In this document: piece after piece, positions 2,687-26,364 of the stretch
Layout of the letters: every line of letters starts with the position of its first letter
How positions within the stretch are numbered: the first letter of the stretch is position 1
Assembly (NCBI GenBank): GCA_002686955.1
Contig: NYZA01000219.1
Span: forward strand, 1 to 39,480
Direction of reading: 5' to 3'
Origin: Gemmatimonadota bacterium
GTDB lineage: Bacteria > GCA-2686955
DNA length: 39,480 bases
Notes under the pieces: generated by a model
The model's input: the letters and a program-made list of their open reading frames with translations, nothing else
Told to the model about the DNA's origin: nothing
Database searches by the model: none
Made by a program: the position numbers and the translations under genes

Positions 2687-2766
2687 CAAAGATCTCCACT
2701 CCGCCGAGGGTCGGCATTTGGATTCTCTCTTCGGAGAGCAAAAACTGCAAGATGTACGGGAGCGTG

Positions 2767-2796
2767 TTGCGGTGATCTTGCTCCGGGGTTTACAAT
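2767..2796 (+). promoter_or_regulatory. Candidate sigma-70 promoter for the carboxypeptidase
   Basis: TTGCGG (2767-2772) and TACAAT (2791-2796) are 18 nt apart and lie 41 nt upstream of the peptidase ATG. The -10 element is close to consensus and the -35 is weak. It sits in the short divergent region between the kinase and peptidase genes. This is a pattern match only. Confidence 0.35.
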
Positions 2797-2837
2797 GGAG
2801 TGTGCGGGTCGCACCCTTACACCCCCCGGAGAACTCC

Positions 2838-10177: not shown

Positions 10178-11431
10178 ATGAGAACAATCGGCTCGTTGCT
10201 GCTGGGGCTGGCCTCACTGGCTTCCATCGCTCGATCGGCGGAGCCGACGCAAGGGCTGGAGACCGCCCTTCGATCGATCGTGGTCATCGAAGCCACGGGG
10301 ATGCCCGGTGGAGTGAGCTCGTTCGCAACGGGAGTGATCATCGATTCTCTGGGGGGGATCGTGACGGCGCTCCACGCCGTCGATGGAGCGGATGAGATCA
10401 GGATCGGTGCTCACCTGGAAGCGCCGCGCCGGGTGGTGCTCTCCGCCTCTGATCGATCAGCCGATCTCGCACTACTGGATGCCATCGCGAGCGATCGCCC
10501 AGCGCCGCCCCTGCCTCCGGCCGCACCGACGGAGCTCGGGGCGCCGATCTTCGTAATCGGAAACGCCTTGGGAACCGGCGTCGTCGTGACGCACGGAATC
10601 GTCGCGGCCCTTCCCGATACAGCCGCCGAGCAAGGCTCCCCGGAAGGGCATCTGCTCGTGGACGCCCTGGTCGCGCAGGGATCGAGCGGCGGACCGGCGG
10701 TGGATCGCGAGGGCCGGTGGGTCGGACTGGTCGTGGGCAAGGCCGTGGTGGACGAGTCGGTCGTTGACCTGGGGATGGTGATTCCGACCGATCGTGTACT
10801 CGCCGTCGTCCGAGCGCTGAGAGCTCGACAGACGGAGCCGACTCCCTGGATCGGAATCGACGTGGAAACGATGACCGCCGCCATGGCCGCGGCCCTTTCC
10901 GCTTCGCCTGGATTGGGAGTGGTGGTCTCTCGGGTGGTCTCGGGAGGCCCGGGCAATCGCGCGGGTCTCGCCCCGATCGACGTGATCACCGCGGTCGACG
11001 GTCGCCCCGTTCATTCCGCCGAAGAGTTCGAGCGGGCGATCGCCTCTCGACGGCCTGGCGAGGCGCTCAAGCTCAGCATCTCCACCGATGGACATGGTCG
11101 CATACTCCAGGTGGAGCTGCGGGAAGCCCCGCCCGAGCCGGAGGACGAGCCGGCGGAAGTGGTCCTCACCGAATTGAAAGGCCTGGGATTGACCGTCGCG
11201 CAGCTCGGAGGCTCCGGGGCACCGGTTGTCGTGGTGTCGATAGTGGATGGCGGTCCGGGGGACCGTGCGGAGATCCGCCTCGGAGACCGCATCGATCTCG
11301 TGGGACGACGTCCGGCCGGCGGATCGGTCCTGCGGGCCGAAGTCCAGCGACAGCTCAGTGGCTCGCGGGCCGTGCTGCTGCGCATCCACCGCGGCGATCT
11401 GGTCCGGCTGGTGGCCGTCGACCTGATGTAG
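10178..11431 (+). CDS. HtrA/Deg-like serine protease with two PDZ domains
   Basis: This exported trypsin-like (S1C) protease of 417 residues is probably for periplasmic quality control. A signal peptide spans about 1-20. The protease domain keeps all three catalytic residues: H66 in VTALHAVDG, D96 in SADLALLD and S170 in QGSSGGPAVD. Two PDZ domains follow: about 222-325 (with VVSGGPGNRAGLAPIDVITAVDG) and about 335-417 (with VDGGPGDRAEIRLGDRIDLVG). The His region differs from the usual TNNHV of DegP, so it is a divergent member and not a clear degP/degQ orthologue. It starts 5 nt after cpoB, which places it in the tol operon and suggests a role tied to envelope integrity. Confidence 0.88.
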   Translation: MRTIGSLLLGLASLASIARSAEPTQGLETALRSIVVIEATGMPGGVSSFATGVIIDSLGGIVTALHAVDGADEIRIGAHLEAPRRVVLSASDRSADLALLDAIASDRPAPPLPPAAPTELGAPIFVIGNALGTGVVVTHGIVAALPDTAAEQGSPEGHLLVDALVAQGSSGGPAVDREGRWVGLVVGKAVVDESVVDLGMVIPTDRVLAVVRALRARQTEPTPWIGIDVETMTAAMAAALSASPGLGVVVSRVVSGGPGNRAGLAPIDVITAVDGRPVHSAEEFERAIASRRPGEALKLSISTDGHGRILQVELREAPPEPEDEPAEVVLTELKGLGLTVAQLGGSGAPVVVVSIVDGGPGDRAEIRLGDRIDLVGRRPAGGSVLRAEVQRQLSGSRAVLLRIHRGDLVRLVAVDLM

Positions 11432-11457
11432 ATTCGAACTCAACCTGAGGTAAGAAG

Positions 11458-12597
11458 ATGAAACTCGCCACCCGGGCCGTTCACGCCGGGCAACATCCGG
11501 AACCGGTCACCGGCGCGATCATGACGCCGATCTTCCAGACCGCAACCTTCGCGCAGGACGCGATCGCCCAGCACAAGGGCTACGAATACGCGCGTACCCA
11601 GAACCCCACGCGCGAGATCCTCGAGGCCAATCTCGCCTCGCTCGAAGGTGGCGCCCACGGCCACGCCTTCGCCAGCGGATTGGCGGCGGTGACCGGCCTG
11701 GCGATGCTTATGGAAGCGGGTGACCACCTGGTATGCACCAGCAACCTGTACGGAGGAACCTACCGCCTTCTCACCACGATCCTCGCGGGATTCGGGCTGC
11801 GCGCGACCTTTGTCGACACATCCGATCTCGGGGCCGTCGAAGAGGCGATCGAGGGTCGAACGCGACTCGTTTTCGTGGAATCTCCGACCAATCCGATCCT
11901 GACACTGACCGACTTGGGGGCGATCGCCGGCCTGGCGAAGGAGCATGGAATCTGGAGCTGCGTAGACAACACGTTCATGAGCCCGATCTTCCAGCGGCCG
12001 CTGGAGCACGGCATCGACATTGTGCTGCACTCCACGACCAAGTACCTGAACGGACACTCCGACGTTGTCGGCGGTGTCATCATCACGGACGACGATTCGC
12101 TGTCGGAGCGCCTCGCCCATGTTCAGAACACGGCGGGTGCCGTGCCTTCGCCATTCGATTCGTGGCTGGTACTCCGGGGCGTCAAGACCTTGCACTTGCG
12201 CATGCAGGCGCACGACTCTCATGGTCGCCGAATCGCGGAGTTCCTGGACGCCGATTCGAGGGTTGGACGTGTATACTACCCGGGATTGGTCGATCATCCC
12301 CAGCATCGACTCGCTGAAGAGCAGATGGACGGATTCGGCGGAATGATCAGCTTCGCGCTCGACGGTTTCGACGCGGCGGAGCGCTTCGTGGCGGCCCTTC
12401 GGGTCTTCACTCTGGCCGAATCGCTCGGCGGCGTCGAAAGTCTGGTCTGCCACCCCGGGGCGATGACCCACGCCTCGGTCCCCGAAGAAGAACGGATCGC
12501 GCTGGGGATCGTGCCCGGGCTGATCCGTCTATCGGTCGGAATCGAAGATGTGGAGGACCTGATCGAGGATCTGGACAAGGCCCTCTCCGCTACCTGA
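11458..12597 (+). CDS. metB: Cystathionine gamma-synthase/lyase family PLP enzyme
   Basis: This 379-residue Cys/Met-metabolism PLP-dependent enzyme acts in the cytoplasm. Tyr44 and Arg46 (GYEYARTQNPTRE) contact the cofactor phosphate of the neighbouring subunit. SGLAAVTGL forms the phosphate cup, D170 (SCVDNTF) binds the pyridine nitrogen, and K195 in HSTTKYLNGHSDVVGG forms the Schiff base. Length and motifs fit cystathionine gamma-synthase (cystathionine from an activated homoserine and cysteine). Gamma-lyase or O-acetylhomoserine sulfhydrylase activity cannot be excluded from sequence. A good GAGGT precedes the ATG. It lies 26 nt after the protease gene and overlaps the convergent PHP gene by 8 bp at their stops. 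Confidence 0.88.
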   Translation: MKLATRAVHAGQHPEPVTGAIMTPIFQTATFAQDAIAQHKGYEYARTQNPTREILEANLASLEGGAHGHAFASGLAAVTGLAMLMEAGDHLVCTSNLYGGTYRLLTTILAGFGLRATFVDTSDLGAVEEAIEGRTRLVFVESPTNPILTLTDLGAIAGLAKEHGIWSCVDNTFMSPIFQRPLEHGIDIVLHSTTKYLNGHSDVVGGVIITDDDSLSERLAHVQNTAGAVPSPFDSWLVLRGVKTLHLRMQAHDSHGRRIAEFLDADSRVGRVYYPGLVDHPQHRLAEEQMDGFGGMISFALDGFDAAERFVAALRVFTLAESLGGVESLVCHPGAMTHASVPEEERIALGIVPGLIRLSVGIEDVEDLIEDLDKALSAT

Positions 12598-14167
12598 CAA
12601 AGAGCGGCCCGCTCACGGCTTCGTCGCCATCTCTCTGCACCGCACGCGCGAACACCGCCTCTCCTATCACCAGGTCCACTGTTGGCCTCCATGTAACGCT
12701 TGCTGCGCCCGGCACCACTTTGGCGGCGATCTCCCGGCCTCCTCGCCCCAGGATTTCGATGCGAAGCAGTGTATCGTCGGGAACGGCATCGGACGCGACC
12801 ACTTCTAGATCTCGGCGCCCCGATCGGATCTCTCCGCCCATCCAAGTTTCGTCCGATGCGCGCAGAGTCAGGATCAACCCGCGATCCTGGGTGGCGAAGG
12901 TTCGTCGTTCTCGGAGCGCTCGCAGAATCCCCTCTTCGGTCAAGGTGCGCGCCAGGACGCCGGTAATGCTGCGCCCCCCATCGCCCCAGCTCGGATTGTG
13001 GTCATCGTGGCTCTCTTGGGGAGAGACGAGCCATCCCTTGTCGAGAGCGCGACGGTACGCGTACGCGAAGCGCCCTTGTCCGTCGAGAGCTCGAATCAGC
13101 GCCATCTGTCGCAGCGCGTCATCTCGGATGCTCTGGTCGGGGAGCGCGAAGTCGTTCCAGTTCCTAGTTCCTTCCTGGTAGGGATGATTGAACTGTCCGA
13201 TTGCCGAGGGCTGTGCGGCCAGCTGTTCCAGGTAGGCGTCCCAATGCGGAGCAGTGATCGCATCGATGTTCCGGTCGGCCCCAAAGGTGTTGAGGTGACC
13301 TTCGGTCGGGTGTGTGTATTCGGTGCCGTAGAGCGCTACGAACTCACCGGCGATCGTCGCTTCCCGCGCGGCTTCGCGAAGCTCGTTCCAACGGCTCTGA
13401 CCGAAGCGCGGAATTCGAACCATCTCAGCGTGGTCGGTGATGGCGAAGAAATCGACTCCCCGATCCTTCGCCGCGCGAAAGGCCTGCGATGGAGGACCGG
13501 CACCGTCGGAGAGTGAGGAGTGGGCGTGCAGCATGCCCTTGTAGATTCGAAGAGCCGAGATGGCGTACGTCCCATCCAGAGGCGTGACATCGACTTCAAT
13601 ACCGCCCGCCCTCCGCCCGCGCGCCGTGACTACCAGTGTTCCAGCGCTGGCGTCGAGCTCGATGCCATGCTTTGAACCTTGTTCGACCACGTTCCGCAAC
13701 ACAACCAGCTCGTTTCCGGATCGAAAACGCGCACTACCGCCGCGCAGGGACTCGCTCAGATCCAACCAGGTCTGTTCGAAAGCGGCGATCGTGGGATCCT
13801 CACGCAAGATACGAGGAGAGTGGAAGACCACCCGATCACCGCGTCCGTGGCGATCGACTCCCGGATCGACCCAGAGCCCGAGCATTGCCCCAGGGCTGAT
13901 CGGCGAGGGGATTTCCCCCCTGATGGACACCGCCCGATGTGGGCTCAGGGAGCTTCGTGCCAGTACCGAAGCGCCCGAAAGTGGATCGTTCCACACCACG
14001 AGGACATCACAGCCGTCGCTCGATCCCTGCCGAGGATAGGGGCTCAGCATCGCCTCGCACTCGAAGTGCATGCGCTGAGGCCGCGGCGCGCTAGGACCCG
14101 GTCGACCCGACGCGGCTGTCCCCAACAAGATCGCCGATACCGCCCCGACGACAGATGGACATTTCAT
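12590..14167 (-). CDS. Secreted PHP-type (CehA/McbA-like) metallohydrolase
   Basis: This is a 525-residue protein whose C-terminal half is a PHP (polymerase and histidinol phosphatase) metal-dependent hydrolase. The ligand set is complete: H214 and H216 (LHAHSSLSDG), D245-H246 (AITDHAEM), E283 (GTEYTH), H291, H328 (QFNHPYQ), H387 (QESHDDH) and D428 (FATQDRG). This suits a phosphoesterase or related hydrolase; the substrate is unknown. The first 200 residues are beta-rich and unrecognised. An N-terminal hydrophobic stretch (VVGAVSAILLGTAASG) indicates export. The ATG at 14167 overlaps the stop of the giant upstream gene (ATGA). The track ORF begins further upstream with a GTG inside that gene. 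It is the last gene of the 26364-12590 run. Confidence 0.87.
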   Translation of the reverse strand: MKCPSVVGAVSAILLGTAASGRPGPSAPRPQRMHFECEAMLSPYPRQGSSDGCDVLVVWNDPLSGASVLARSSLSPHRAVSIRGEIPSPISPGAMLGLWVDPGVDRHGRGDRVVFHSPRILREDPTIAAFEQTWLDLSESLRGGSARFRSGNELVVLRNVVEQGSKHGIELDASAGTLVVTARGRRAGGIEVDVTPLDGTYAISALRIYKGMLHAHSSLSDGAGPPSQAFRAAKDRGVDFFAITDHAEMVRIPRFGQSRWNELREAAREATIAGEFVALYGTEYTHPTEGHLNTFGADRNIDAITAPHWDAYLEQLAAQPSAIGQFNHPYQEGTRNWNDFALPDQSIRDDALRQMALIRALDGQGRFAYAYRRALDKGWLVSPQESHDDHNPSWGDGGRSITGVLARTLTEEGILRALRERRTFATQDRGLILTLRASDETWMGGEIRSGRRDLEVVASDAVPDDTLLRIEILGRGGREIAAKVVPGAASVTWRPTVDLVIGEAVFARAVQRDGDEAVSGPLFVR

Positions 14168-17100
14168 CGATCGATCATCAAGATGTCGGAGACCCCGAGC
14201 GAGAGCATCAGTGTTCGTCCTCTGCGCTCGATCGCGGTACCTCTCACCGATCGAATCCTGCTCGGCGTCCACCCCAGGTCGAGTTCGATGCTCAGCGTCT
14301 CGATCGGCGAATCGGTGAAGTTCACGAGGACCAGAGCCGCCCTGGATGGCCCTTCGAGGAGATTGGGTTCCACGAGCGGATTGCTACACCGCGCCGGCGA
14401 ACCCACGCCCGCCAATTGCAGAGGCATCGCGATAACCGATCGGGCGGCCCTGTCGAATTCCGAGGGCAGCCAATGGTTCATGCTCACTGCTCGGCAACCT
14501 CGATCCCAGGGCCTGATCGGAATCGCGCTTCGCACATAGGCCAAACCCGGCAGCGCCGCGGCTCCAACGACGCTCCCCCGCCCATGACGGGCGATGACGA
14601 TGGCGGGGTCGCCGTTCTCGAATCGCCCGAGAACTTCAGCGTTCTTTACCGACCACCGCTGCCGCAGTGCGACCGCGTCGAAGCTCCCCGCTTCGGCCAT
14701 CCGCACTCGGCCGAGCGCTTCCAGCCGCGGTAGCTCCACCTTCGCTCGCACCAGTCCAACGCTCTTCTCCACGTCGAGAGATCGACAGCCGATCAGATCC
14801 GGCAAGAGATTGCTGGGGCGATCGTACTCGTCACGCACTCCGGTGCCGCCCGAAGCAAAGAGGACTCCTCCCTCTCTGACCCAATCGATCAGACCTCGAG
14901 CCACGTCCCGCGCAACGTGCCCCCCCGCAATGTACAGAGTCGAATAGTCGGCGATGGCACCGCTGCGCACGTCCGCGGATGGAACGATCTCGACCGGGAT
15001 CTGAAGGTGACGCAGAGCCAGCCACAATGCTTTCCGCTCTTCGCTGAACAGAATCGACTTGCAGTCGTCGCAGTCGCCGTACGTTCCGGTTCCGGCGTTC
15101 TCCCAGATGTCGCTCGCGTCGGGCACTACAATTCCGACACTTGCCCGCCGAGGGTAACCATCGAGCAAGTATGCCTCGGCCGCCCCGATTTCATGATTCA
15201 ACTCACCCATCGTCAGGTAGCGACTCACATTCGCCGCGTCGACGTAATTCTCGTACCAGAACTGCTTTGGAAAGGCACAGAAATAGTTCACAATCTTGGC
15301 GCCGTGCCCAATTGCACTCATCGCCGAGCGTCGCAGGTCCTCGTCCGTATTGTTAGGTGTGTGGGGCATCGCGTAGAAAGCAATCGGCAATTTCGCCTCA
15401 CGAGCACCCGCCCACATGAAATCGCCGAGATATCCCACGACCTGCGTCGAGACCTCTGGCACCTGCCACAGATAATCTTCGCTCCACGGCATCGTCATGC
15501 CACCTTCACGGAAGATCTCTATCCACTTTCGAGATGGGAGCTCAAAGTAGTTGTGCGGGCTGAAATTGGCGCCGATCAGCACGTCATCGCCATAGTGCAC
15601 GCGCACTTGCTCACTCAGTCTTCCCTGCTCCATCGTGAAGATGCGGCCCTGGAAACGAATGGTGTGGTAGTACAGACGAGGATACTGCTTCGCCTCGGCC
15701 GGTCCGACCATTCGCACCCGCTGCCACCGCTCCTCCGCCGTGCCGTGAAGCTCCTCAAGGGGAAGAAGGTCCTTCGCCCCCAACCCGAGTCCCTCGACAT
15801 AGAGGCGGAATTCGGCCTGCCATGCAGCGTTCGGCAAATAGTTGTGTAGCCTGGGAAGCGGGATCTCGTCCCCCAATGAGACAATATGAACTTCGCGTTC
15901 GATGCCCGCCTCGCGCTCTCTCGAGACGTTCGCGTGGTTTAGATGAATCTTGCGGCGAATCCTGACCTTATTCGCCGGATCGCTCGCCTCACCAGCCTCA
16001 GGCATGAGGTGCCGTAGCGTGTTGAACCCCATGTGTCCGTAGAGGTCGAACATGCTGGAGCGCATGCTCGAGCTCATCGCTGTCATGGTGTGCTCGTCCC
16101 ACCGATTGGGATAGATCAGGAATCGGCGCGGCATTCTTCCGCGAAATCGAACCGCTTTGACGGATGAGACCAGCTCTTCCAGTACCTGCTCTCCGCTGGT
16201 TACTCGGCCATCCTCCGGGTAGCGCGGCGGGATATTGAATAGCACAGTGTTTCGCTTCTTTTGATCGCCGGTCCAATCGACTCGCTCGATCGGGCTCTCC
16301 CCTCGAGAGCCACAGAATTCGGCCTCGAGTTTCGGTGAGATCTCTGGAGTGTTGCTGTCGACCCAGATGCGCAACGTCGTTTCGTCGGTTGTGTCGAGAT
16401 CTCGACCCAAATCGATCCACTGGCTCTGTTCCCCCGGCCTGAGCTCGGTGGCCTTGCGCAATCCGAACGGCTTCTTCAGGAAGGGATTGCGGTGGAGCAT
16501 CGTCTGACCGGAAATGTTGATGGCATCCGGCGCATCCTCAGGGTTCCTGAAGCGAACGAATACACGACCAGCTGTCGCAAGTTCATCCAAGTAGGGAAGC
16601 CAGGGATTCTCGGGAGCGATTCCCTTTCGAGTGGTCAAGAAGATGGCGTCGACATTTCGGTCCGCGGCCATTGGCCCATTGTCGCGACCATAGAGGATTA
16701 TCTCGGCAGTTCCGGCGTCGAGGCCAACTTCGTAGTCGTGCCCCTGCCATACAACATTGTCTCCGCCTCCCCATGGCCATACCGGATCCGATACGAGCCT
16801 GGCTTCGATGTCGTCTCGAGAGCCGAACGACCACAGCTTCAAGGCGTCACCGTCTCCGTACCGCTCGTCGAACACCACTTCACCGTCTTGGACTATCCGG
16901 ATTCCGAAACGTGTCTCGAAACCAGTTGGCGCTTCGAAATGGGCCCAGACGCGGTATCGCGCAGAGCGAGGCACTCGAATCGTCGCTCTGGCTTCACCCT
17001 CGGTCTCTTCGGCCGGCAGAGACAAACAGCGCTGTCCCGACATGAAATTCCCACCGAAGCCGGAGAAATAAGTCTCACAGAGGTCCGCCCGCCTCCATGG

Positions 17101-19107
17101 ACCACCAACGAACTTCTCAGCTTCGATTGAAAAATGTAGAGCCTCCTCACCGGCCGATTCCAGGTAGGCAAGTCCACCGCGCTTGCGGACATTCGCGGTC
17201 AATCGTTGTTTAGATTCTTGCTCGGTATCCAGCGCGACATCGATGCGGTACTGCCCAGAAGGCTCGTCAAAAGTCGGCCAGAAGAGGGCGAGACGGGTTG
17301 AGCCGACCGGTACCTCGATCTCTCGTACTACGTTGAAAACCGGCTCTTCCTCCCCCACTCGATGCACCCGCAGGTCGAGCCTGGCTTTGCGATCGACCCC
17401 TTTCCCGACGACAACCGTGGTGATCGGAAAACGCTCTCGATCGTACGCATCCCGGCCGGGGAGTTCCAGGTGCATATGCAGTGGAGCGATGGTGGGCACA
17501 TCCACGCTCAACTCCGCCCAGGATGGCTTGGGTCGGAGCTCGTAGGCTGGGTGGTGGAAGATTCCCGCTCGGCCGACTCCTGCACTGCGATGCAGCGCAC
17601 CACGTTGCCGGCGCTCCAATCCCCAGCGTGGATGAAAAACGGCCCCGCTGTTTCTCTTGTTGGGCGCCTGGAGATCGACCTCCATGGGGCCGATTCCGGT
17701 CGCGGTGGGTGGGAGATCGAGCAACTCGATGATTTGCGCTCCTGACCAGATCGGCGATTCGGGATCGAGGAGACCACCGGGATGAGCAGAAGGAAGGGCA
17801 ATGAGCTTCGGCTCCCCCCAGATCGCCCAGTCGAAGTTGCCGCGGCCCAGCGGATCGACCGTGAGGGTCAAGACGATCTCTCTGCCCTGGTAGTCGATCA
17901 GATCGACCAGCACGGGCGTCCAGCCCGGCTCCCTTACAACGGCCCTGTGGACTTCACGGGCCAGTCCACGGTCGCTTCTGGATTCACGAACCGACACTTG
18001 GAATTCCACGCCGTTCGACGAGGGAAATGCACCATCGGATAGGCCCATCCAGAACGCAAACCACACCCCCCCCCCAGGCGGCAGCTCAATCAGTTCGGCT
18101 GTGTCTCTGTTGGAGTAGTCCAGGAAAATAGGACCGGTGGTCTGCCCCATCGGCCCCATGTCGAGCTCGAAAGTGTAGCTTCCGGCGGCGACGCCGGTCG
18201 CGGCCCAGTGCACCTCATGGGTCTGCTCTCCCGGAGAGAGGGTGAGCTCGGTCTCTAGACGATCGACCTCCTCGTCGCCATCGAGAATCCGCAAGGCAAT
18301 CGGCGAGGTACCCGCCCAAGGTGATCGGCTGCGGATCTCGAAGATCGCTCCCGACCCTTCTGCTCCCGTCGGCCGATTGCTCAGCCAAGCAACCGAAATG
18401 TCGTGGACCGCGGGCAGATCGAGCAGCCACTCTCCCCAGGATGGAGCTGGGCGACTATGGGCAGGGTGATGGAAGATCGCCGGCTCCTTGACGCCTCCCG
18501 AAAGGTTCTCGGTTCCCGAGGTGCGGCCACCGGCATCGCGATAGGCATCGAAGGCGGCGCCACCCCCGATTCCACGGCGCGGCTGCAGCTTGGCCGCCCG
18601 CGAGCCGACACCGGTAGTGGCTTTGTGGGCCGTATCGACGAGGTCGACAACCAGATCTTCGCTTGGAGCCGCCCCCGCTCCTTCCCACTCGTCGGGTACG
18701 CGAACGATTCTGGCTCGCCCCCACGCGGCGAAGTCGTAGCTCGCTGAGTTGCGCTGACCGGGCGATACGACCAGTCGCAGCATGACAGGTCGTCCCTGCC
18801 ATCGGCTCAGCTCGACGGCAACGGGGTGCCATCCCTCTTCTTCGATGTTCATGTGCAAGATCGACTCGTGACCCGGTCGATTCGGCGTCCTCACTTCGAC
18901 CCCGAAGGTGACCCCATCCGATGCCGGAAACGCGCCGTCCAGCAGTCCGACATCGGCGACGAACCAGAGGCGATCTCCACGTGCGGAGGGGCATAGCGCG
19001 ACCAGGAGAAACAGGCAAACCGCGATCCACCGTCCTTGCCTGCCTTCGTGCCGGACCCCCATTTCGGACTCGCTCGTCGCTCGCGTATTCAAGAGCATCT
19101 GCATCAC
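14164..19107 (-). CDS. Giant secreted glycoside-hydrolase-like multidomain protein (GH42-like)
   Basis: This exported protein of 1647 residues has a signal peptide at about 16-44. It contains a tandem duplication: a jelly-roll module, an IFHHP module and an Ig-like domain at 45-345, and again at 346-640. A CBM6/35-like region follows (about 652-828, starting SIEAEKF). Next is a TIM-barrel-like part (about 970-1330), then a beta-galactosidase trimerisation-like GATase fold (1325-1440, with GGVLFASGGTGVRDEY and no Cys nucleophile), and a C-terminal beta-sandwich. This order resembles GH42-type enzymes. E1081 (SLGDEIPL) and E1210 (MPWSEDY) are my guesses for catalytic acids. The GTG start overlaps the permease stop (GTGA); an ATG at 19062 is a good alternative. 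Substrate and exact family are unknown. Confidence 0.75.
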   Translation of the reverse strand: MMQMLLNTRATSESEMGVRHEGRQGRWIAVCLFLLVALCPSARGDRLWFVADVGLLDGAFPASDGVTFGVEVRTPNRPGHESILHMNIEEEGWHPVAVELSRWQGRPVMLRLVVSPGQRNSASYDFAAWGRARIVRVPDEWEGAGAAPSEDLVVDLVDTAHKATTGVGSRAAKLQPRRGIGGGAAFDAYRDAGGRTSGTENLSGGVKEPAIFHHPAHSRPAPSWGEWLLDLPAVHDISVAWLSNRPTGAEGSGAIFEIRSRSPWAGTSPIALRILDGDEEVDRLETELTLSPGEQTHEVHWAATGVAAGSYTFELDMGPMGQTTGPIFLDYSNRDTAELIELPPGGGVWFAFWMGLSDGAFPSSNGVEFQVSVRESRSDRGLAREVHRAVVREPGWTPVLVDLIDYQGREIVLTLTVDPLGRGNFDWAIWGEPKLIALPSAHPGGLLDPESPIWSGAQIIELLDLPPTATGIGPMEVDLQAPNKRNSGAVFHPRWGLERRQRGALHRSAGVGRAGIFHHPAYELRPKPSWAELSVDVPTIAPLHMHLELPGRDAYDRERFPITTVVVGKGVDRKARLDLRVHRVGEEEPVFNVVREIEVPVGSTRLALFWPTFDEPSGQYRIDVALDTEQESKQRLTANVRKRGGLAYLESAGEEALHFSIEAEKFVGGPWRRADLCETYFSGFGGNFMSGQRCLSLPAEETEGEARATIRVPRSARYRVWAHFEAPTGFETRFGIRIVQDGEVVFDERYGDGDALKLWSFGSRDDIEARLVSDPVWPWGGGDNVVWQGHDYEVGLDAGTAEIILYGRDNGPMAADRNVDAIFLTTRKGIAPENPWLPYLDELATAGRVFVRFRNPEDAPDAINISGQTMLHRNPFLKKPFGLRKATELRPGEQSQWIDLGRDLDTTDETTLRIWVDSNTPEISPKLEAEFCGSRGESPIERVDWTGDQKKRNTVLFNIPPRYPEDGRVTSGEQVLEELVSSVKAVRFRGRMPRRFLIYPNRWDEHTMTAMSSSMRSSMFDLYGHMGFNTLRHLMPEAGEASDPANKVRIRRKIHLNHANVSREREAGIEREVHIVSLGDEIPLPRLHNYLPNAAWQAEFRLYVEGLGLGAKDLLPLEELHGTAEERWQRVRMVGPAEAKQYPRLYYHTIRFQGRIFTMEQGRLSEQVRVHYGDDVLIGANFSPHNYFELPSRKWIEIFREGGMTMPWSEDYLWQVPEVSTQVVGYLGDFMWAGAREAKLPIAFYAMPHTPNNTDEDLRRSAMSAIGHGAKIVNYFCAFPKQFWYENYVDAANVSRYLTMGELNHEIGAAEAYLLDGYPRRASVGIVVPDASDIWENAGTGTYGDCDDCKSILFSEERKALWLALRHLQIPVEIVPSADVRSGAIADYSTLYIAGGHVARDVARGLIDWVREGGVLFASGGTGVRDEYDRPSNLLPDLIGCRSLDVEKSVGLVRAKVELPRLEALGRVRMAEAGSFDAVALRQRWSVKNAEVLGRFENGDPAIVIARHGRGSVVGAAALPGLAYVRSAIPIRPWDRGCRAVSMNHWLPSEFDRAARSVIAMPLQLAGVGSPARCSNPLVEPNLLEGPSRAALVLVNFTDSPIETLSIELDLGWTPSRIRSVRGTAIERRGRTLMLSLGVSDILMIDR
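17188..18975 (-). repeat. Tandem duplication of a ~300-residue module inside the giant protein
   Basis: Residues 45-345 and 346-640 align along their length. Shared landmarks are DGAFPASDGV / DGAFPSSNGV, EEGWHPVAVEL / EPGWTPVLVDL, FAAWG / WAIWGEP, TGVGS / TGIGP, and AIFHHPAHSRPAPSW / GIFHHPAYELRPKPSW, each followed by an Ig-like stretch. The copies have diverged strongly at DNA level, so the duplication is old. Confidence 0.8.
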
Positions 19108-20345
19108 TCGGTTCGAAGGGACTCTATCGGATCCATCGCCGCGGCCCGCCGTGCCGGCATCAGCCCAAAGAAGAGCCCGACTCCACCACTGAAAAAGATC
19201 GCCAACAGGAGTACCGGGACCGGAAAGCGCGGCTCGACCGGCTCCGACAGAAAGGTGGCGATCGCGCCCGCGAGCCCTCGCCCGAGGCCAACACCACAGA
19301 GCGCACCGATCGCGCCCCCGACCACCGTCACGGTCGAAGCCTCCATCAGGAACTGCGCCATCACGTCTCTGTTCGCCGCGCCGATCGCCTTGCGAATCCC
19401 GATCTCACGGGTTCTCTCGGTCACTGAAGCCAGCATGATATTCATGATTCCGATGCCGCCGACCAGAAGCGAAATCCCGGCGATTCCGCCCAGGGTCAAG
19501 TTGATCAGAAGAGTAACGTTGGCGATCCTCTCGAGAATCGCTTCTTCGCGATCAACACGGAAGTCCGCTCCACCTTTGTGATTGGCGATCAGAACCGCCC
19601 GAACCGAGCGTTCGACCTCTGGTGCATCGGCTGGGCTGCGAAGCTGCAAGACGATGCGCGATAGGTGATCTGAACGGGTCAATCGCCGCTGAGCGGTCTC
19701 GATCGGAAGAACTACCACGTCGTCGGTGTCACGAAAAATGCTGGTTCCCCGCTCAGCGAGCACACCGACCACGACCAGACGCAGGGGACCGAGTCGGATC
19801 TCTCTGCCGAGAATCGACGAGACGGTGGCACCAGGAAAGAAATCACGGGCGACCTCGGACCCGATCAAGCACACCAGCTCCCCCGCGTCCAGAGGGGCCA
19901 ATCCCCTGCCCGATTGCAGATGCCATTTCCGGGCTCCGACCCCGCCCGCTCGCAAGCCGAGGTACGAAACCGATCGACTCACACGCCCCGCGGCCGCGGA
20001 GAGAGTTCCGGTTACTTCCGGCAACACCTCCTTCACGCGCCCGCGGGAGCGTTCCCGATCCATATCTCGCACATCTTGCCAGGTGAGCTGCTCCGGCTCA
20101 GGATTTCGCCTCCAGTCGCCCTCCCGCTTCACCCACCGCGGTTCTCCCCGAACGTTGACTTGATCCGCTGCACCCACTTCGCCTAGCTGGGAGATGACCG
20201 AATCCCGCATTCCCTCGCCGATCGACACGGCCGCGATCACCGAAGCCACACCGATCACGATCCCCAGCATCGAGAGGCCACTGCGAAAGCGGTGCGCCGC
20301 GATCTCCGTCACCCCGAGTCGAATTCCGAGCAGGAACGAGCTCAT
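19104..20345 (-). CDS. MacB/FtsX-like ABC transporter permease (no ATPase domain)
   Basis: This 413-residue inner-membrane permease of the MacB type is a mechanotransmission ABC subunit. A first helix (SMLGIVIGVASVIAAVSIGEGM) is followed by a periplasmic MacB core domain (about 50-270) and the FtsX-type bundle of three helices, with the signature VGGIGIMNIMLASVTERTREIGIRKAIGA. It ends in ARRAAAMDPIESLR, typical for the family. The ATG at 20345 overlaps the adaptor stop (ATGA); the track ORF extends upstream into the adaptor gene. There is no ABC ATPase here or anywhere in the window, so the nucleotide-binding subunit must be encoded elsewhere. In operon with the lipoprotein adaptor and two secreted hydrolases. 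Confidence 0.91.
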   Translation of the reverse strand: MSSFLLGIRLGVTEIAAHRFRSGLSMLGIVIGVASVIAAVSIGEGMRDSVISQLGEVGAADQVNVRGEPRWVKREGDWRRNPEPEQLTWQDVRDMDRERSRGRVKEVLPEVTGTLSAAAGRVSRSVSYLGLRAGGVGARKWHLQSGRGLAPLDAGELVCLIGSEVARDFFPGATVSSILGREIRLGPLRLVVVGVLAERGTSIFRDTDDVVVLPIETAQRRLTRSDHLSRIVLQLRSPADAPEVERSVRAVLIANHKGGADFRVDREEAILERIANVTLLINLTLGGIAGISLLVGGIGIMNIMLASVTERTREIGIRKAIGAANRDVMAQFLMEASTVTVVGGAIGALCGVGLGRGLAGAIATFLSEPVEPRFPVPVLLLAIFFSGGVGLFFGLMPARRAAAMDPIESLRTE

Positions 20346-21505
20346 CCGGTTCCGATCCGCCCCAGAAGCGCGGGATCCGGCAGATCGGGCGGGCCAAGCT
20401 CGGCCCTCGGGTAGCGAAGAACCTCGTCCCCCTCGTCCAGGCCAGATTTGATCTCTACCCAGTTTTCGTCGCGCAAACCCAGCTCCACGGCGATCGGCGA
20501 CTCCGCTACGCGATTCAGCACCTCCCACCCACCCGATTCCGAGGACCGAACCGATTCCACCGGCAGCGCGAGAACCCGAAGCGCCTCATCCAGCACGAGA
20601 TCGATTCTGCAGGTCATGCCCGGCTTCAAGCGCTTCGCTGAAGCCTCCAGAGCGATCGTCACCTCGAACTCCACGCGGTCGTTCCCTTCCGGCCTCTGAA
20701 TCGCGGCCACCGCGACCCGCTCGACAGCTCCCTGGAAACAAGCGTCGGGCAGCGCCTCCACCGCCACCTGAACGGGAGCCCCAGGCTCGACGTACTTCAC
20801 ATCCGCCTGATCGACGCGGCAATGAACCACCAATCCGCCGAGATCTCCAATGGTGAAGAGCTCTTTGCCGGTCCCGGGGGTCCCGAACGCCGACCGAACG
20901 ACCTCACCTATCTCCAGGGAGCGGCGCAAGACCGTACCGCTGACCGGCGCGAGGATATCCGCCGCCCCCACCCGCACCCGTGCCGCGCCACCACCCTCTT
21001 CTTCCATCGTGCGCAGCTGCGTACGTCGAAGCTCGAGTGTCGCCTGGGCGACATCGAGCTCCGCGGCCACCAGATCGAGCTCATCGGCGGCGGCGCGTCC
21101 TTCTCGCACGAGCTGCTTCCTCCGGTCTCGCTCCTCCAGCGCGAGAGCAAACGAAATGCTGTCCTGTAGAACCGCGACCCTCGTGCTGAGATACCGAAGG
21201 TGCTCATTCGGCTCGACATTCAACGTTGCCAAGACGCTCCCCTTTTCAACGAGATCTCCTTCAGCGACAGCCAGGGCGGCCACGGTTCCGCCCAGTCGCG
21301 ATCGAACGACCACCGATGATCTGGGGGCGATCGATCCGGATTCGCGCAAGCGGCGCACGATATCGATCTTCTGAACCGTGACGACGGCCGGCTGATTCTC
21401 GGTCTGGCGCGAGGGGGCGCCACAACCGGCGACCACGGCCTGCACCCCCAGCAGAGGCCAGGCCGCTCTCCAGGCTACTCCGCGACGCTTTCTACTGCCG
21501 GCCAC
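20342..21505 (-). CDS. Lipoprotein HlyD/MacA-family efflux adaptor
   Basis: This is a periplasmic adaptor of 387 residues that would connect the MacB-like permease to an outer-membrane channel. From the GTG at 21505 the N-terminus is basic then hydrophobic and ends in the lipobox VAGC at Cys28, so it is likely lipid-anchored. The two lipoyl halves are seen around 45-95 (GTVAALAVAEGDLVEKGSVLATL, in part) and around 195 (ILAPVSGTVLRRS), separated by a coiled-coil hairpin (about 100-175). The beta-barrel and membrane-proximal domains follow. The track ORF starts 51 residues earlier with TTG and no ribosome site. The GTG start overlaps the small upstream membrane gene by 31 bp and suggests coupling. 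Confidence 0.86.
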   Translation of the reverse strand: MAGSRKRRGVAWRAAWPLLGVQAVVAGCGAPSRQTENQPAVVTVQKIDIVRRLRESGSIAPRSSVVVRSRLGGTVAALAVAEGDLVEKGSVLATLNVEPNEHLRYLSTRVAVLQDSISFALALEERDRRKQLVREGRAAADELDLVAAELDVAQATLELRRTQLRTMEEEGGGAARVRVGAADILAPVSGTVLRRSLEIGEVVRSAFGTPGTGKELFTIGDLGGLVVHCRVDQADVKYVEPGAPVQVAVEALPDACFQGAVERVAVAAIQRPEGNDRVEFEVTIALEASAKRLKPGMTCRIDLVLDEALRVLALPVESVRSSESGGWEVLNRVAESPIAVELGLRDENWVEIKSGLDEGDEVLRYPRAELGPPDLPDPALLGRIGTG

Positions 21506-21600
21506 GGTGTGCTCGCGCGAGCCCCTCCCCACAGAATCAGCCCAAGGGCAAAGGTCACGAAGACGGTGAATAGAAGATTTCCGAAACGGCGCGCGGGCAA
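21475..21600 (-). CDS. 41-aa single-helix membrane protein (not in ORF track)
   Basis: This is a short frame read by eye between spoVR and the efflux adaptor. It starts with TTG preceded by a strong ribosome site (GGGAGGT, about 3 nt spacing). The product has a basic N-terminus (PARRFGN) and a single hydrophobic helix (LLFTVFVTFALGLILWGG, about 9-26), then a short polar tail ending VESVAE. Its last 31 bp overlap the adaptor start in another frame. I do not recognise a family. Small single-helix proteins often act as accessory subunits of membrane complexes, so a role with the adaptor/permease is plausible, but that is inference from position only. Confidence 0.55.
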   Translation of the reverse strand: MPARRFGNLLFTVFVTFALGLILWGGARASTPWPAVESVAE

Positions 21601-21681: not shown

Positions 21682-23163
21682 CTACTCCTCGGTGATCTCC
21701 TCGCCATCAAAAGAAAGAACGAAGTCCTTCTTTTCGCTTCTCGACGCAATGTGGACCGGGCGGCTCCAGACACGGTAGAGGTTCTTGAGCGTCGCAATCG
21801 CCTTGTCGAGATCCAGGACGGTGCCTTCGAAGCGGTGCTGCAAGAGAAGCTCTCCCCGGTTTCGATGATTCGCATCGATGACATCGATCAGTGGGTTGCC
21901 CATGTTCGTGAGAGAGAAGAGCAGACGTTCCTTGATCCGCTTGAACTCCCGCGATTCGATCTCGTACCGCTCGGCTGAGGAATTGTAGGAAAAGCTGAAG
22001 AAGTTGTTTCGACGACAGAAATCCTCGGTCAGAAACTCATCTATGAAGGTCACATCGTTGTAAAGACGCCTCACCTCGAAGATCTTCTCGCGACCCAACC
22101 CCAAGTGTCGATCCCAATCTCTGCGCTCTTCGAAAGAGTCACACATTTCGTAGTCGACCCCGAAGCGGCCGCGATCCCAACGGTCCTCGATATCACGAAA
22201 GAGCTCGATTCCGATCTTGTAGGGATTCACCTGCCGGCCGGAATTGGCCGTCACTCCGGCGTGCTTCTGTGCATAGTCGACTATCTCGGCATCGTCGAGG
22301 ATCTCCGTTGTCATCAGGGTACTGTGCCAATATGAAGCCCATCCTTCGTTCATGATCTTGGTTTGACCCTGCGGTGCGAAGTACAACGCTTCTTCTCTCA
22401 CGATCTCCAGGATTTCCCGCTGCCATGGTTCGGCCGGCGCATGTTCCACCAAGAAGGCCATTACGTCACGCACCGGTTCAGACGGGAACTGTTTCGATCG
22501 TCTCTCTTTCCCCTCCATAGACGCACGCTGCGCCACGATGAACTCAGGCGGGTTGATGTAGTCCTCCATGTAGGATTTCGCTCTGAGTCGAGGGACACCG
22601 TCACTCTGATCCGTCCCTGCGCCGTTCTTCTCGGTGCGCGGAGTGCGACGAATTCCGCCGGCGTGAACGTCTACGAGGTTCTCCAGAGACAAACACACAT
22701 CGATGAACTCTTCGACTTTATCCTGGCCGAATCTGGCCATCAACGACCTGACTCGTGAGGCGTGATTCGCCATCTCGTCCATCATCTTCCGATTCGTATG
22801 CGAAAACCACATGTTGTTCTTGAAGAAGTCACAGTGCCCGTATACATGCGCCATCACCATCTTCTGGGTTATCATCTCATTCGATTGGAGCAGGTATGCG
22901 TAACAAGGGTCGTTGTTTATTACCAATTCATAGATGGTCTGCAGCCCATAGGCGTACCCTTTGGTAAGACGATTGAATTCCATCCCCCAGCGCCAATGCG
23001 GATAACGAGTCGGGAAGCCCTGGTACGCCGCGATCGAGTTGATCGTCTTGTAGTCGAGAACCTCGAAGATGACCTCATAGGTATCGAGTCCGGCTCCTTC
23101 GACGATCTCTCGAATGCGATACTTGGCGGCCTTTAGATCGCTCGGGAATGCAGTATGAATCAC
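21682..23163 (-). CDS. spoVR: SpoVR family protein (YcgB-like)
   Basis: This cytoplasmic protein of 493 residues belongs to the SpoVR/YcgB family, which is linked to spore cortex formation in Bacillus and to starvation or stationary phase in other bacteria; its biochemical activity is unknown. Family stretches include YPHWRWGMEFNRLTKGYAYG, VMAHVYGHCDFFKNN, NEGWASYWH and NPYKIGIELFRDIEDRWDRG. The histidine-rich part (AHVYGHCDF, NEGWASYWH) is conserved and has a metal-site look. It lies 3 nt after yeaH and closes the well-known prkA-yeaH-spoVR trio. It is full length. Confidence 0.95.
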   Translation of the reverse strand: MIHTAFPSDLKAAKYRIREIVEGAGLDTYEVIFEVLDYKTINSIAAYQGFPTRYPHWRWGMEFNRLTKGYAYGLQTIYELVINNDPCYAYLLQSNEMITQKMVMAHVYGHCDFFKNNMWFSHTNRKMMDEMANHASRVRSLMARFGQDKVEEFIDVCLSLENLVDVHAGGIRRTPRTEKNGAGTDQSDGVPRLRAKSYMEDYINPPEFIVAQRASMEGKERRSKQFPSEPVRDVMAFLVEHAPAEPWQREILEIVREEALYFAPQGQTKIMNEGWASYWHSTLMTTEILDDAEIVDYAQKHAGVTANSGRQVNPYKIGIELFRDIEDRWDRGRFGVDYEMCDSFEERRDWDRHLGLGREKIFEVRRLYNDVTFIDEFLTEDFCRRNNFFSFSYNSSAERYEIESREFKRIKERLLFSLTNMGNPLIDVIDANHRNRGELLLQHRFEGTVLDLDKAIATLKNLYRVWSRPVHIASRSEKKDFVLSFDGEEITEE

Positions 23164-23166
23164 GAC

Positions 23167-24270
23167 TCAGTTGCCCTTTCCGAGGAATTCCTTGATGGAG
23201 CCATGAATCCCATCTCGGCCCTGAATATCGCTTAGCACGACCTTCTCATCACTCGAGAACTGGTGCCTCAGATCCTTGATGAACTGCCCGGAACCATAGG
23301 GCGATTGAACCTGCCCGTACCCGAATAGGTTGGCGTCTGGGACTAGTCGAGACTTGAGAATTTCGAGGCAGACTTCCGTGTCGCCGCCACCCCAGTTGTC
23401 ACCATCGGAGAAATGGAAGAGGTAGATGTTCCAATCTTGCGGAGGGTAGTTGGCGCCTATGATTTCGGCCGCCTTGGTGTAGGCAGAGCTGATTCTGGTG
23501 CCACCGGATTCGCGGGTATGGAAGAACGTCTCTCTGTCGACTTCGTGTGCCACGGCGTCGTGAATGATGTAGCGGGTTTCGAGTTCTTTGTATTGGGCTC
23601 TGAGCCAGGTGTCGATCCAGAAGCTCTCGATTCGTACGATCTCTTTCTGCTCGTCACCCATCGAGCCCGATACGTCCATCATGTAGACAATCGCGGCGTT
23701 GAACTCCGGATGGACGACATCAACCCAAGATCTGTAGCGTCGATCTTCTCTGATCGGTGTGAAGATCGGTTTCTTTGGATCGAAGGTCCCCGCCATGATT
23801 TGACGCTTGAGCGATTCCCTGTATGTCCGCTTGAAATGACGCAACCCCTCCGGCCCAACTCGGCGGATCCCGCTGTAGCGCCTGTAGGTGGCGGTGATCG
23901 ACTTTGCGCCTTTCGGCTCGATCCTGGGTAGCTCGAGCTCTTCACCGAGAATCTCGGCCAGCTCATCGAGAGATACGTCCACCTCGAGTACGTGTTGCCC
24001 TTCATCCTCCCCAGCGGGGCCCGGCTGGCCGCCCTCGCCAGGACCGACCGGTTGGCCTGGCTCCCCGTCGCCTTGACCGACTCCGCCCGATCCACCAGTG
24101 CCGAAACGAAAACGCGGAATATCGATCTCGGGCAGAGGGATGGAGATGACATCCTTGCCCTTCTTGCCGAAGAGCTCGCCTCGGCTCATGTACTGCTTCA
24201 GCTCTTTGCGAATCCGTCCCTTGACGATATGACGGAATCGGGCGGCGTCCCGTTCGATCTTCGACACCAT
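23167..24270 (-). CDS. yeaH: YeaH/YhbH (DUF444) protein
   Basis: This 367-residue DUF444 protein is the usual partner of the PrkA kinase. The N-terminal part is basic ([21 protein letters not shown], in part). A Gly/Pro-rich linker runs from about 57 to 91. The C-terminal half resembles a von Willebrand A domain with a MIDAS-like D199-V-S-G-S in [14 protein letters not shown]. The family member YhbH is needed for sporulation in Bacillus, while YeaH goes with YeaG in enteric starvation responses. The gene begins 42 nt after prkA and ends 3 nt before spoVR, a typical operon spacing. The exact biochemical role is not established. Confidence 0.94.
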
Positions 24271-24312: not shown

Positions 24313-26364
24313 CTAGCTCTCCTGCACGTCTCCTCTGGCGAAAATCGAGGCCACGTAGTTCAAGACATCGGTGGCGCACACCTCGCAATAACCGTAGTTT
24401 TCGATCATGCGCGTCTTGACGACGTCGATCTTGGCTTGAGTGTCTTTGTCGACGACACTCGAGACCAGGCTCTTGAGCTTGATCGTGTCTTTCTGATCTT
24501 CGAAGAGCTTCAGCTCCAATGCCTTGTGCAGGCGTTCGTTTGTCCGATAACTGAACGTTTTGCCTTCGATCGCTAGCGCACCGATGTAGTTCATGATCTC
24601 GCGGCGAAAATCGTCTTTCAGGGATTCCTGAATTCCGATCTTCTCCTCGATGCTTCGCATCAATCGCTCGTCCGGCTCTTCGTCTTGATTGGTGTAACGG
24701 TTGCGGACCCGCTCCTTCTGGGTATACGCCTTGATGTTGTCTATGTAGTTGGCACACAGTTTCTGGATCGATTCCTCGTCGGCACAGATCGCCCGCTGCA
24801 CTTCGTTCTTCGCCATGTCTTCGTACTCTTGTTTGACAGCGGCGATCAGCTCTCGGTACCGCTTTCGGGTCTCTTCGTCGGAAATCAGCGAATGATGGTC
24901 GAGGCCTCGATCGAGCTCATTGATCACCATGAAAGGATTCACGCAGGCTTCGTGGCTATCGTCTACGAGCGCGTTCGAAAGTTTGTCTTGCACGTAGCGC
25001 GGGCTGATTCCGGTCAGGCCCTCCCGCATGGCCTCGGCCCTCAACTCGCGAATATTGTCTTCGGTGAACCCAGGCAAGGTCTTGCCGTTATACAGTTTGA
25101 GCTTCTGAATCGGCGTCAGTTTGGCGTTTTTCGGCTCCTCGAGCCGAGTGAGTACGGCCCACATGCCGGCCAGCTCGATCGTGTGGGGAGCCATATGTTT
25201 CCCCTCGATCTCGCCGTAATCTTTTTGGTAGATACGGATCTCGTCGTCGAGGCGCGTGCAGTAGGGAACATCGATCTTCACCGTGCGATCCCGGAGGGCC
25301 TCCATGAACTCGTTGTTCTGGAGCTTTCTGTACTCCGGCTCGTTCGTGTGGCCGATGATTACTTCGTCGATGTCGGTCTGAGCGAATTTCTTCGGCTTGA
25401 TCGAGTGTTCCTGCGAGGCTCCCAGAAGATCGTAGAGAAACGCAACGTCGAGTTTCAAGACCTCGATGAACTCGACAACGCCCCGATTGGCAATGTTGAA
25501 TTCACCGTCGAAGTTGAACGCTCGCGGATCGGAGTCCGAGCCGTACTGCGCGATCTTCGCGTAATTGATATCGCCGGTGAGCTCGGTGGAATCCTGGTTC
25601 TTCTCGTCCTTCGGTTGAAATGTCCCGATGCCGACGCGGTCCTGCTCGGAGAGGAGCATCCGGCGCACCTTGACGTGGCCGATGACCCGATTCCAATCCC
25701 CTTCATACCGGTTCAGCAACTGGGTCATCGTGAAGCGACAGAATGGACACAGCTCCCCGGCGACCTCCACGGGATGGCCGTCCCTCTCCTTGCCGAGTAG
25801 ACGGTCCAGGGCCGCGGCTCGATTCGCCGCGGGAATCAGTCGGAATGGTTCCTCATGCATCGGACAGGGATGGACTTCAGTCTCTCCATCCTCGCCGGGC
25901 AGCACCCAAGAAAAGGTGTAGAGCACCCCTTCGTCGCTTCGGCTGTAATGCTCCATTCCCCGCTTGATCAAGCGGACGATGGTGCTTTTCGATGAGCCGA
26001 CCGGCCCGTGCAGCAGGAGCACCCGCTTTTCGGTTCCGTAACGGTGGGCGGCGGAGCTGAGCACGTTCACGAGGGTCATCAGGGCTCGATCGAGCCCATA
26101 GATGGCGTCTTGGCCATCGCCCAGCGGATCGGAAAAGAACGTGTATTTGACCACCCTCTCCTTATGCTCCGAGTAATCCTCTTTCCCGAAGGAGAGGATC
26201 ATGTCGAACACACGCTGGAAGGCGGTCCGCAGCGCCCGCGGATTCTCGGCCACCAGGCCGAGGTACTCCTCGAAAGTACCTTCCCAGTTCAGCGAGCGGT
26301 AGACATCGGGATCGTGCAGATCCCTCACGAATTTCATGAGGTCGGAAGGGGTCGTTGTCGCCAT
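24313..26364 (-). CDS. prkA: PrkA/YeaG serine protein kinase
   Basis: This 683-residue AAA+-type protein of the PrkA family is described as a serine protein kinase in Bacillus and as the starvation regulator YeaG in E. coli; later work on the Bacillus protein suggests ATP-dependent protease activity instead. The AAA domain carries Walker A GPVGSSKS at 120-127. Two Cys-containing stretches ([14 protein letters not shown] and GELCPFCRF) occur where family members have similar motifs. The C-terminal PrkA domain (about 420-680) includes [19 protein letters not shown]. The ATG is preceded by GAGGGACC at good distance. It is the first gene of the trio and probably of the longer run down to 12590. 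Confidence 0.95.

Follow-up and report, generated by a model that had tools for sequence, protein, structure and literature searches.

Permeases of the MacB superfamily are known for their coupling helix, and their nucleotide-binding domains (NBDs) are not always fused to them—in LolCDE and FtsEX the ATPase is encoded separately from the permease (PMC5985334). Such MacB-like machines are able to act on both periplasmic and lipidated substrates (PMC5985334). Here we describe a related locus in a Gemmatimonadota bacterium, on a stretch of 39,480 nucleotides (contig NYZA01000219.1 of assembly GCA_002686955.1; hereafter the window). It shares with MacA-MacB(-TolC) type VII ABC systems and LolCDE an RND_mfp/MacA adaptor, a permease with a MacB core and an FtsX domain, and a coupling-helix motif; in contrast to them, it has neither a fused NBD nor a neighboring ATPase gene in either of the two genera that carry it, has no adjacent TolC gene, and is linked to prkA-yeaH-spoVR. 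The block comprises five minus-strand genes at 12590-21600, read in the order small open reading frame (ORF), adaptor, permease, giant secreted protein, and PHP gene. It most likely represents a composite operon, in which a clade-specific, ATPase-less MacA/MacB-like cassette (the small ORF, adaptor, and permease) behind prkA-yeaH-spoVR is followed by two separable genes for secreted hydrolases.

The source phylum is represented by two genomes: that of the window (G000, a fragmented metagenome-assembled genome in 270 contigs, 84.5% complete) and one from another genus of the same family (G001, 83% complete). A single G001 contig (C365) carries counterparts of YeaH (83% identical), SpoVR (72%), the small ORF (45 aa), the adaptor (52%), and the permease (70%), with an identical ATGA overlap; 30 bp separate its permease stop codon from a convergent gene for an HtrA that is 51% identical to the window HtrA. 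Genes of the giant, PHP, and cystathionine-synthase types are all missing from this matching locus on C365. What is conserved is thus the cassette, intact on C365 without the two hydrolase genes; these were either gained in the source lineage or lost from that of G001.

Distribution elsewhere separates the same parts. Neither adaptor, permease, SpoVR, nor a CehA-type PHP protein was found at 79 loci of giant relatives (flanks of up to 10 kb to either side), in searches whose positive controls worked, and no adaptor, permease, or giant was found at 20 loci of the closest PHP relatives (flanks of about 5-9 kb, contig ends permitting). The giant and PHP genes are thus separately distributed families, extra at this locus relative to the sister genus. 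Among 30 SpoVR loci (1.5 kb flank), an adaptor lies behind SpoVR only in G000 and G001 and in none of the 28 others. The window has the three genes of the prkA-yeaH-spoVR operon in identical order, directly upstream of the block and on the same strand (the initial annotation of the block did not mention them); the difference is the adaptor-permease cassette behind the set, which among these 30 SpoVR loci occurs only in the source family. Among 129 sampled neighbors of giant relatives, no constant partner gene emerged; genes for lipid A acyltransferase, exosortase (EpsH), and DUF3485 recur three to four times each beside them (L095-L173). One PHP match near a giant homologue (L100) was rejected: it is weak, below the PHP cut-off, and lies in an LPG-synthase membrane protein.

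The ORFs and their coordinates are as initially annotated, and the gene identities proposed there are essentially right: a MacA/RND-type adaptor, an ATPase-less MacB permease, a GH42-like giant (GH, glycoside hydrolase), and a PHP hydrolase. The junctions need one qualification. The 4-bp stop/start overlaps at 20342-20345 and 14164-14167 (both ATGA) stand, and so does the overlap of the adaptor start (GTG, 21505) with the small membrane ORF, which measures 31 nt; the third reported 4-bp overlap, GTGA at 19104-19107, exists only if the giant starts at that GTG. An ATG one codon later would give a 1-bp overlap with the permease (TGATG), and the signal peptide looks cleaner, and most typical, when translation is taken to begin at an internal ATG (residue 16). 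Overlaps of 4 bp make up 5 of the 22 same-strand junctions in the window gene list, so three consecutive ones suggest an operon or co-expression and are not extraordinary. A scan for sigma-70 promoters and terminators returned signals at chance level. The block is real, its five genes are probably transcribed as one unit, and their co-expression in the source genome is plausible.

The G001 counterpart of the small ORF (L055:2497), in the equivalent place, differs by many synonymous changes, and a Shine-Dalgarno-like site precedes it in both genomes. The two products read VPTRRFGNLLY...ALGLIVWGG in the window and LPARRFGNLLF...ALGLILWGG in G001, and this conservation with synonymous changes indicates that it is probably a real gene. 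The adaptor scores 137 bits against TIGR01730 (cut-off 94.9), which places it among MacA/RND_mfp adaptors, and it falls below the equivalog cut-off of PRK11578 (MacA). The permease has both the MacB periplasmic core (PF12704, 127 bits) and the FtsX C-terminal domain (PF02687, 72 bits). It has no Walker A motif and retains the coupling motif ERTREIGIRKAIGA, placed after the second membrane helix, the MacB coupling-helix region.

No ATPase gene lies in the block or on the short G001 contig that carries the cassette. At more than half of 20 loci of the nearest permeases elsewhere, a LolD/MacB-type ATPase is adjacent; several adaptor-permease sets have none nearby within the DNA fetched (e.g., L215, L224, and L231 in G155, G129, and G266), so the ATPase-less arrangement is not unique. 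We found no description of ATPase-less MacB pairs in the literature searched. In the source genome, the three best LolD-like ATPases adjoin permeases of their own (contigs C178, C54, and C201). A TolC-like outer-membrane partner is missing from the window genes scanned; an outer-membrane (OEP) gene sits on C54, within a full OEP-adaptor-ATPase-permease-permease set. It is possible that an ATPase reaches the permease in trans; the retained coupling-helix motif suggests that the permease probably borrows one of the LolD/MacB type, in which case the cassette would carry out periplasmic mechanotransmission work of the MacAB kind.

The PHP protein is, by its sequence, an ordinary CehA/McbA-type metallohydrolase. 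It passes the curated model NF038032 (91.5 bits, cut-off 80) and keeps every metal-ligand motif—HAH (214-216), TDH (244-246), GTE (281-283), GHLN, NHP (327-329), and SHDDH (386-390)—and it differs from other members in a 200-residue N-terminal region. Relatives in other genomes are about 30-36% identical. The likely substrate bond would be an ester, carbamate, or phosphoester. Both this protein and the giant have signal-peptide-like N-termini and would be secreted by Sec through these signals, not through the adaptor and permease.

In the giant, two related modules (about residues 34-233 and 340-590) precede a region of GH42 fold (650-1647). In Pfam, the GH42M trimerization domain reaches 16.4 bits, below its cut-off of 25.8, and PF02449 gives no match at E 0.1; as a single query, the giant has no sequence match in the PDB, no full-length family model in Pfam or NCBIfam, and no match in a scan of genome contigs. 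Finding the family needed an alignment built through distant planctomycete relatives, one of which matches residues 704-1645. This alignment recovered 116 relatives in GTDB contigs (79 loci kept), mostly from Planctomycetota and Verrucomicrobiota, with others from Omnitrophota, Armatimonadota, Acidobacteria, Lentisphaerota, and Myxococcota (names as in the records). Family proteins of about 1,000 aa align over their whole length with residues 650-1647 (about 30% identity), and a tree gives the giant a very long branch (2.97) without a sister that can be trusted. One planctomycete relative (L060 6537-9593, in G136) sits in a glycan-use setting, next to an acetyl xylan esterase-type gene and cytochrome/DUF1501 genes of planctomycete type.

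An AF2 model of the GH42-fold region, from 66 sequences, is confident (pLDDT 88.3, pTM 0.92), and its best Foldseek match is the GH42 structure 5dfa (9.1e-21); the top matches are GH42 beta-galactosidases, a beta-1,2-glucosyltransferase, and GH164. The family profile also matches GH42 chains by sequence (about 1e-9), and its alignment by hhalign with 18 true GH42 proteins reaches 99.7% (E 6.6e-26), so the fold is that of GH42. The TIM barrel and trimerization-like domain are shared with GH42 beta-galactosidases (Gan42B, PDB 5dfa/4oif) and with GH164/GH35 barrels; the N-terminal beta module found throughout the giant family is not a GH42 trait, nor are the 650 further residues of the giant itself, with their two related modules. 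Modules like these occur in other large secreted proteins, one of which also carries CBM9 and a glycosidase-like (DUF5696/GH101) region, and a role in sugar binding may be suggested for them. For residues 40-649, prediction without an alignment gave a model too poor to use (pLDDT 46), so we claim no fold for the N-terminal modules. The literature searched, which did not take in CAZy, gave no description of this GH42-like family.

The active site is where the family departs from GH42. In assigning one GH42 Glu as the acid/base and another as the nucleophile, we follow the general view of GH42 enzymes and the title of PDB entry 5dfa (E323A catalytic mutant). E1081 (in GDE) is Glu in all 66 aligned rows and coincides with the acid/base Glu of the GH42 NE motif (18/18) at the end of strand 4; the strand-5 Asn, an HGA motif, and a strand-8 Glu align as well, the last as E1286 (66/66; EKFH in GH42). 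The nucleophile Glu (LMEQ, 18/18 in GH42) is replaced: in a confident profile alignment, rather than superposed coordinates, its strand-7 column holds P1248, which is Pro in 59 rows, Ala in 6, and Ile in 1, and is followed by a His (H1249) in all 66. A new invariant Glu appears instead on strand 6: E1210, aligned to the Asp of GH42 SWDxYP, is present in 66/66 rows, partly by selection as one of the two search patterns contained it, and in 15/15 A1 sequences gathered by a whole-protein search without patterns. Judged from these aligned residues, the altered active site is the novel part of the giant family. With the fold and acid/base present and the nucleophile absent, we do not file the giant as GH42. 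The coordinates of these codons and of the other features are collected in Table 1.

Table 1. Features of the locus in window coordinates.
Feature	Position	Strand	Details
HtrA-like PDZ protease	10178..11431	+	TIGR02037 1.5e-47; right-hand syntenic anchor common to G001
Cystathionine gamma-synthase/lyase family gene	11458..12597	+	PF01053 7e-150; convergent, between HtrA and block; absent here in G001
Secreted PHP / CehA-McbA-type metallohydrolase	12590..14167	-	NF038032; complete metal motifs
Giant secreted protein, 1,647 aa	14164..19107	-	Signal peptide, two N-terminal modules, GH42-fold C-terminal region
GH42-fold region of giant	14164..17160	-	Beta module, TIM barrel, trimerization-like domain, C-terminal beta domain
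P1248-H1249 codons	15361..15366	-	Position of GH42 nucleophile Glu (LMEQ to MPH)
E1210 codon	15478..15480	-	Family-specific Glu, barrel strand 6
E1081 codon	15865..15867	-	Aligned to GH42 acid/base Glu
MacB-type permease without NBD, 413 aa	19104..20345	-	MacB_PCD 1.2e-36, FtsX 5.3e-20
Lipoprotein periplasmic adaptor (RND/MacA type), 387 aa	20342..21505	-	GTG start; lipobox VAGC; TIGR01730 5.3e-40
Small ORF, 41 aa, single-span membrane	21475..21600	-	TTG start, GGAGG upstream
spoVR	21682..23163	-	PF04293 7.2e-138; G001 counterpart 72% identical, directly before cassette
yeaH (DUF444/YhbH)	23167..24270	-	PF04285 1.8e-82; G001 counterpart 82.9% identical
prkA, serine protein kinase / AAA protein	24313..26364	-	Pfam AAA_PrkA 2e-86, PrkA 3.6e-90; first gene of upstream conserved set

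Two features of the flanks may be mentioned here. Opposite the cystathionine synthase gene runs a long antisense ORF (11440-12471, minus strand), a GC-rich shadow ORF that is probably no gene. Farther out, the window encodes an M14 zinc carboxypeptidase with an InhA-like MAM domain (2625-5141); at another locus (L063, in G287), a protein carrying a giant-type N-terminal module has a related M14 gene nearby.

What the giant does can be read in two ways, both compatible with a composite operon. In the first, which goes with our preferred reading of the locus, it would act on a glycan, with E1081 as the acid/base and E1210 probably as the non-canonical second carboxylate. Tentatively, its C-terminal region may even define an undescribed GH family, widespread in Planctomycetota, Verrucomicrobiota, and candidate phyla: a GH42-type barrel whose second catalytic carboxylate stands on strand 6 (E1210) and no longer on strand 7, with an invariant His where the nucleophile neighborhood used to be and an altered mechanism, e.g., inverting or with another nucleophile. 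Slightly less probable than such a new family, in our estimate, is a catalytically dead GH42-fold protein that serves as a glycan binder or scaffold. The nucleophile column would fit this, holding no carboxylate in any of the 66 rows when the GH42 Glu is invariant; however, the acid/base Glu, strand-6 Glu, Asp, His, and strand-8 Glu are invariant across very distant relatives, as is rarely the case in a dead enzyme, and the giant, for all the length of its branch, still keeps every one of these residues, which speaks for a working protein.

At the level of the locus, the initial annotation had proposed one dedicated system, in which the adaptor and permease export or remodel a surface glycan with two matched enzymes, the giant and the PHP protein, made in fixed ratio to the transporter. 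The shared strand and tight junctions across four genes speak for such a system, as do the secreted appearance of both hydrolases and the substrate range of MacB-like machines noted above (PMC5985334). We nevertheless consider it improbable: the sister genus has the cassette without the hydrolases at the matching locus, and hydrolase homologues lie without the cassette everywhere we looked (the 79 and 20 loci). The annotation had itself named hydrolase homologues without the cassette in most genomes, to be looked for by a conserved-neighborhood search, as what would refute its proposal, and the same comparisons leave the fixed ratio unsupported. Far less probable still is an assembly chimera. 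The source genome is fragmented enough to invite the suspicion, but the SpoVR and HtrA flanks match one G001 contig with relative order and orientation conserved, so the extra genes lie between true neighbors.

The composite operon itself has points to set against it. With one other family genome, itself 83% complete, gain and loss are indistinguishable; the giant may possibly sit elsewhere in G001, in a missing stretch, and at 84.5% completeness the source assembly may lack a dedicated ATPase. Additionally, the three consecutive tight junctions suggest co-expression of all four larger genes. A lineage-restricted functional link between cassette and hydrolases may exist in the source genome. 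The composite operon remains our preferred reading, under which the giant and PHP genes would have joined the operon end at the convergent htrA boundary, or been lost from there in the sister genus, and would be co-expressed through their tight junctions. A functional addition to it, possible though on balance doubtful, ties the cassette to a PrkA-YeaH-SpoVR stress module, for instance in stationary-phase envelope maintenance, with the hydrolases as late-stage carbon scavengers of the same regulon. The linkage is kept between two genera whose neighboring genes are 70-83% identical; against this, it occurs at just 2 of the 30 SpoVR loci, a pair of genomes from a single family gives no means of telling function from descent, and a 176-bp gap divides SpoVR from the adaptor.

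As a system, the locus is ordinary—operon make-up varies between genera. The ATPase-less MacB cassette behind prkA-yeaH-spoVR is a smaller lead to the function of a poorly understood stress operon. The giant family, if active, would show that a catalytic residue has changed place in a fold that has been studied at length, and would bring many further enzymes to glycan turnover in bacteria of the Planctomycetes-Verrucomicrobia-Chlamydiae (PVC) group.

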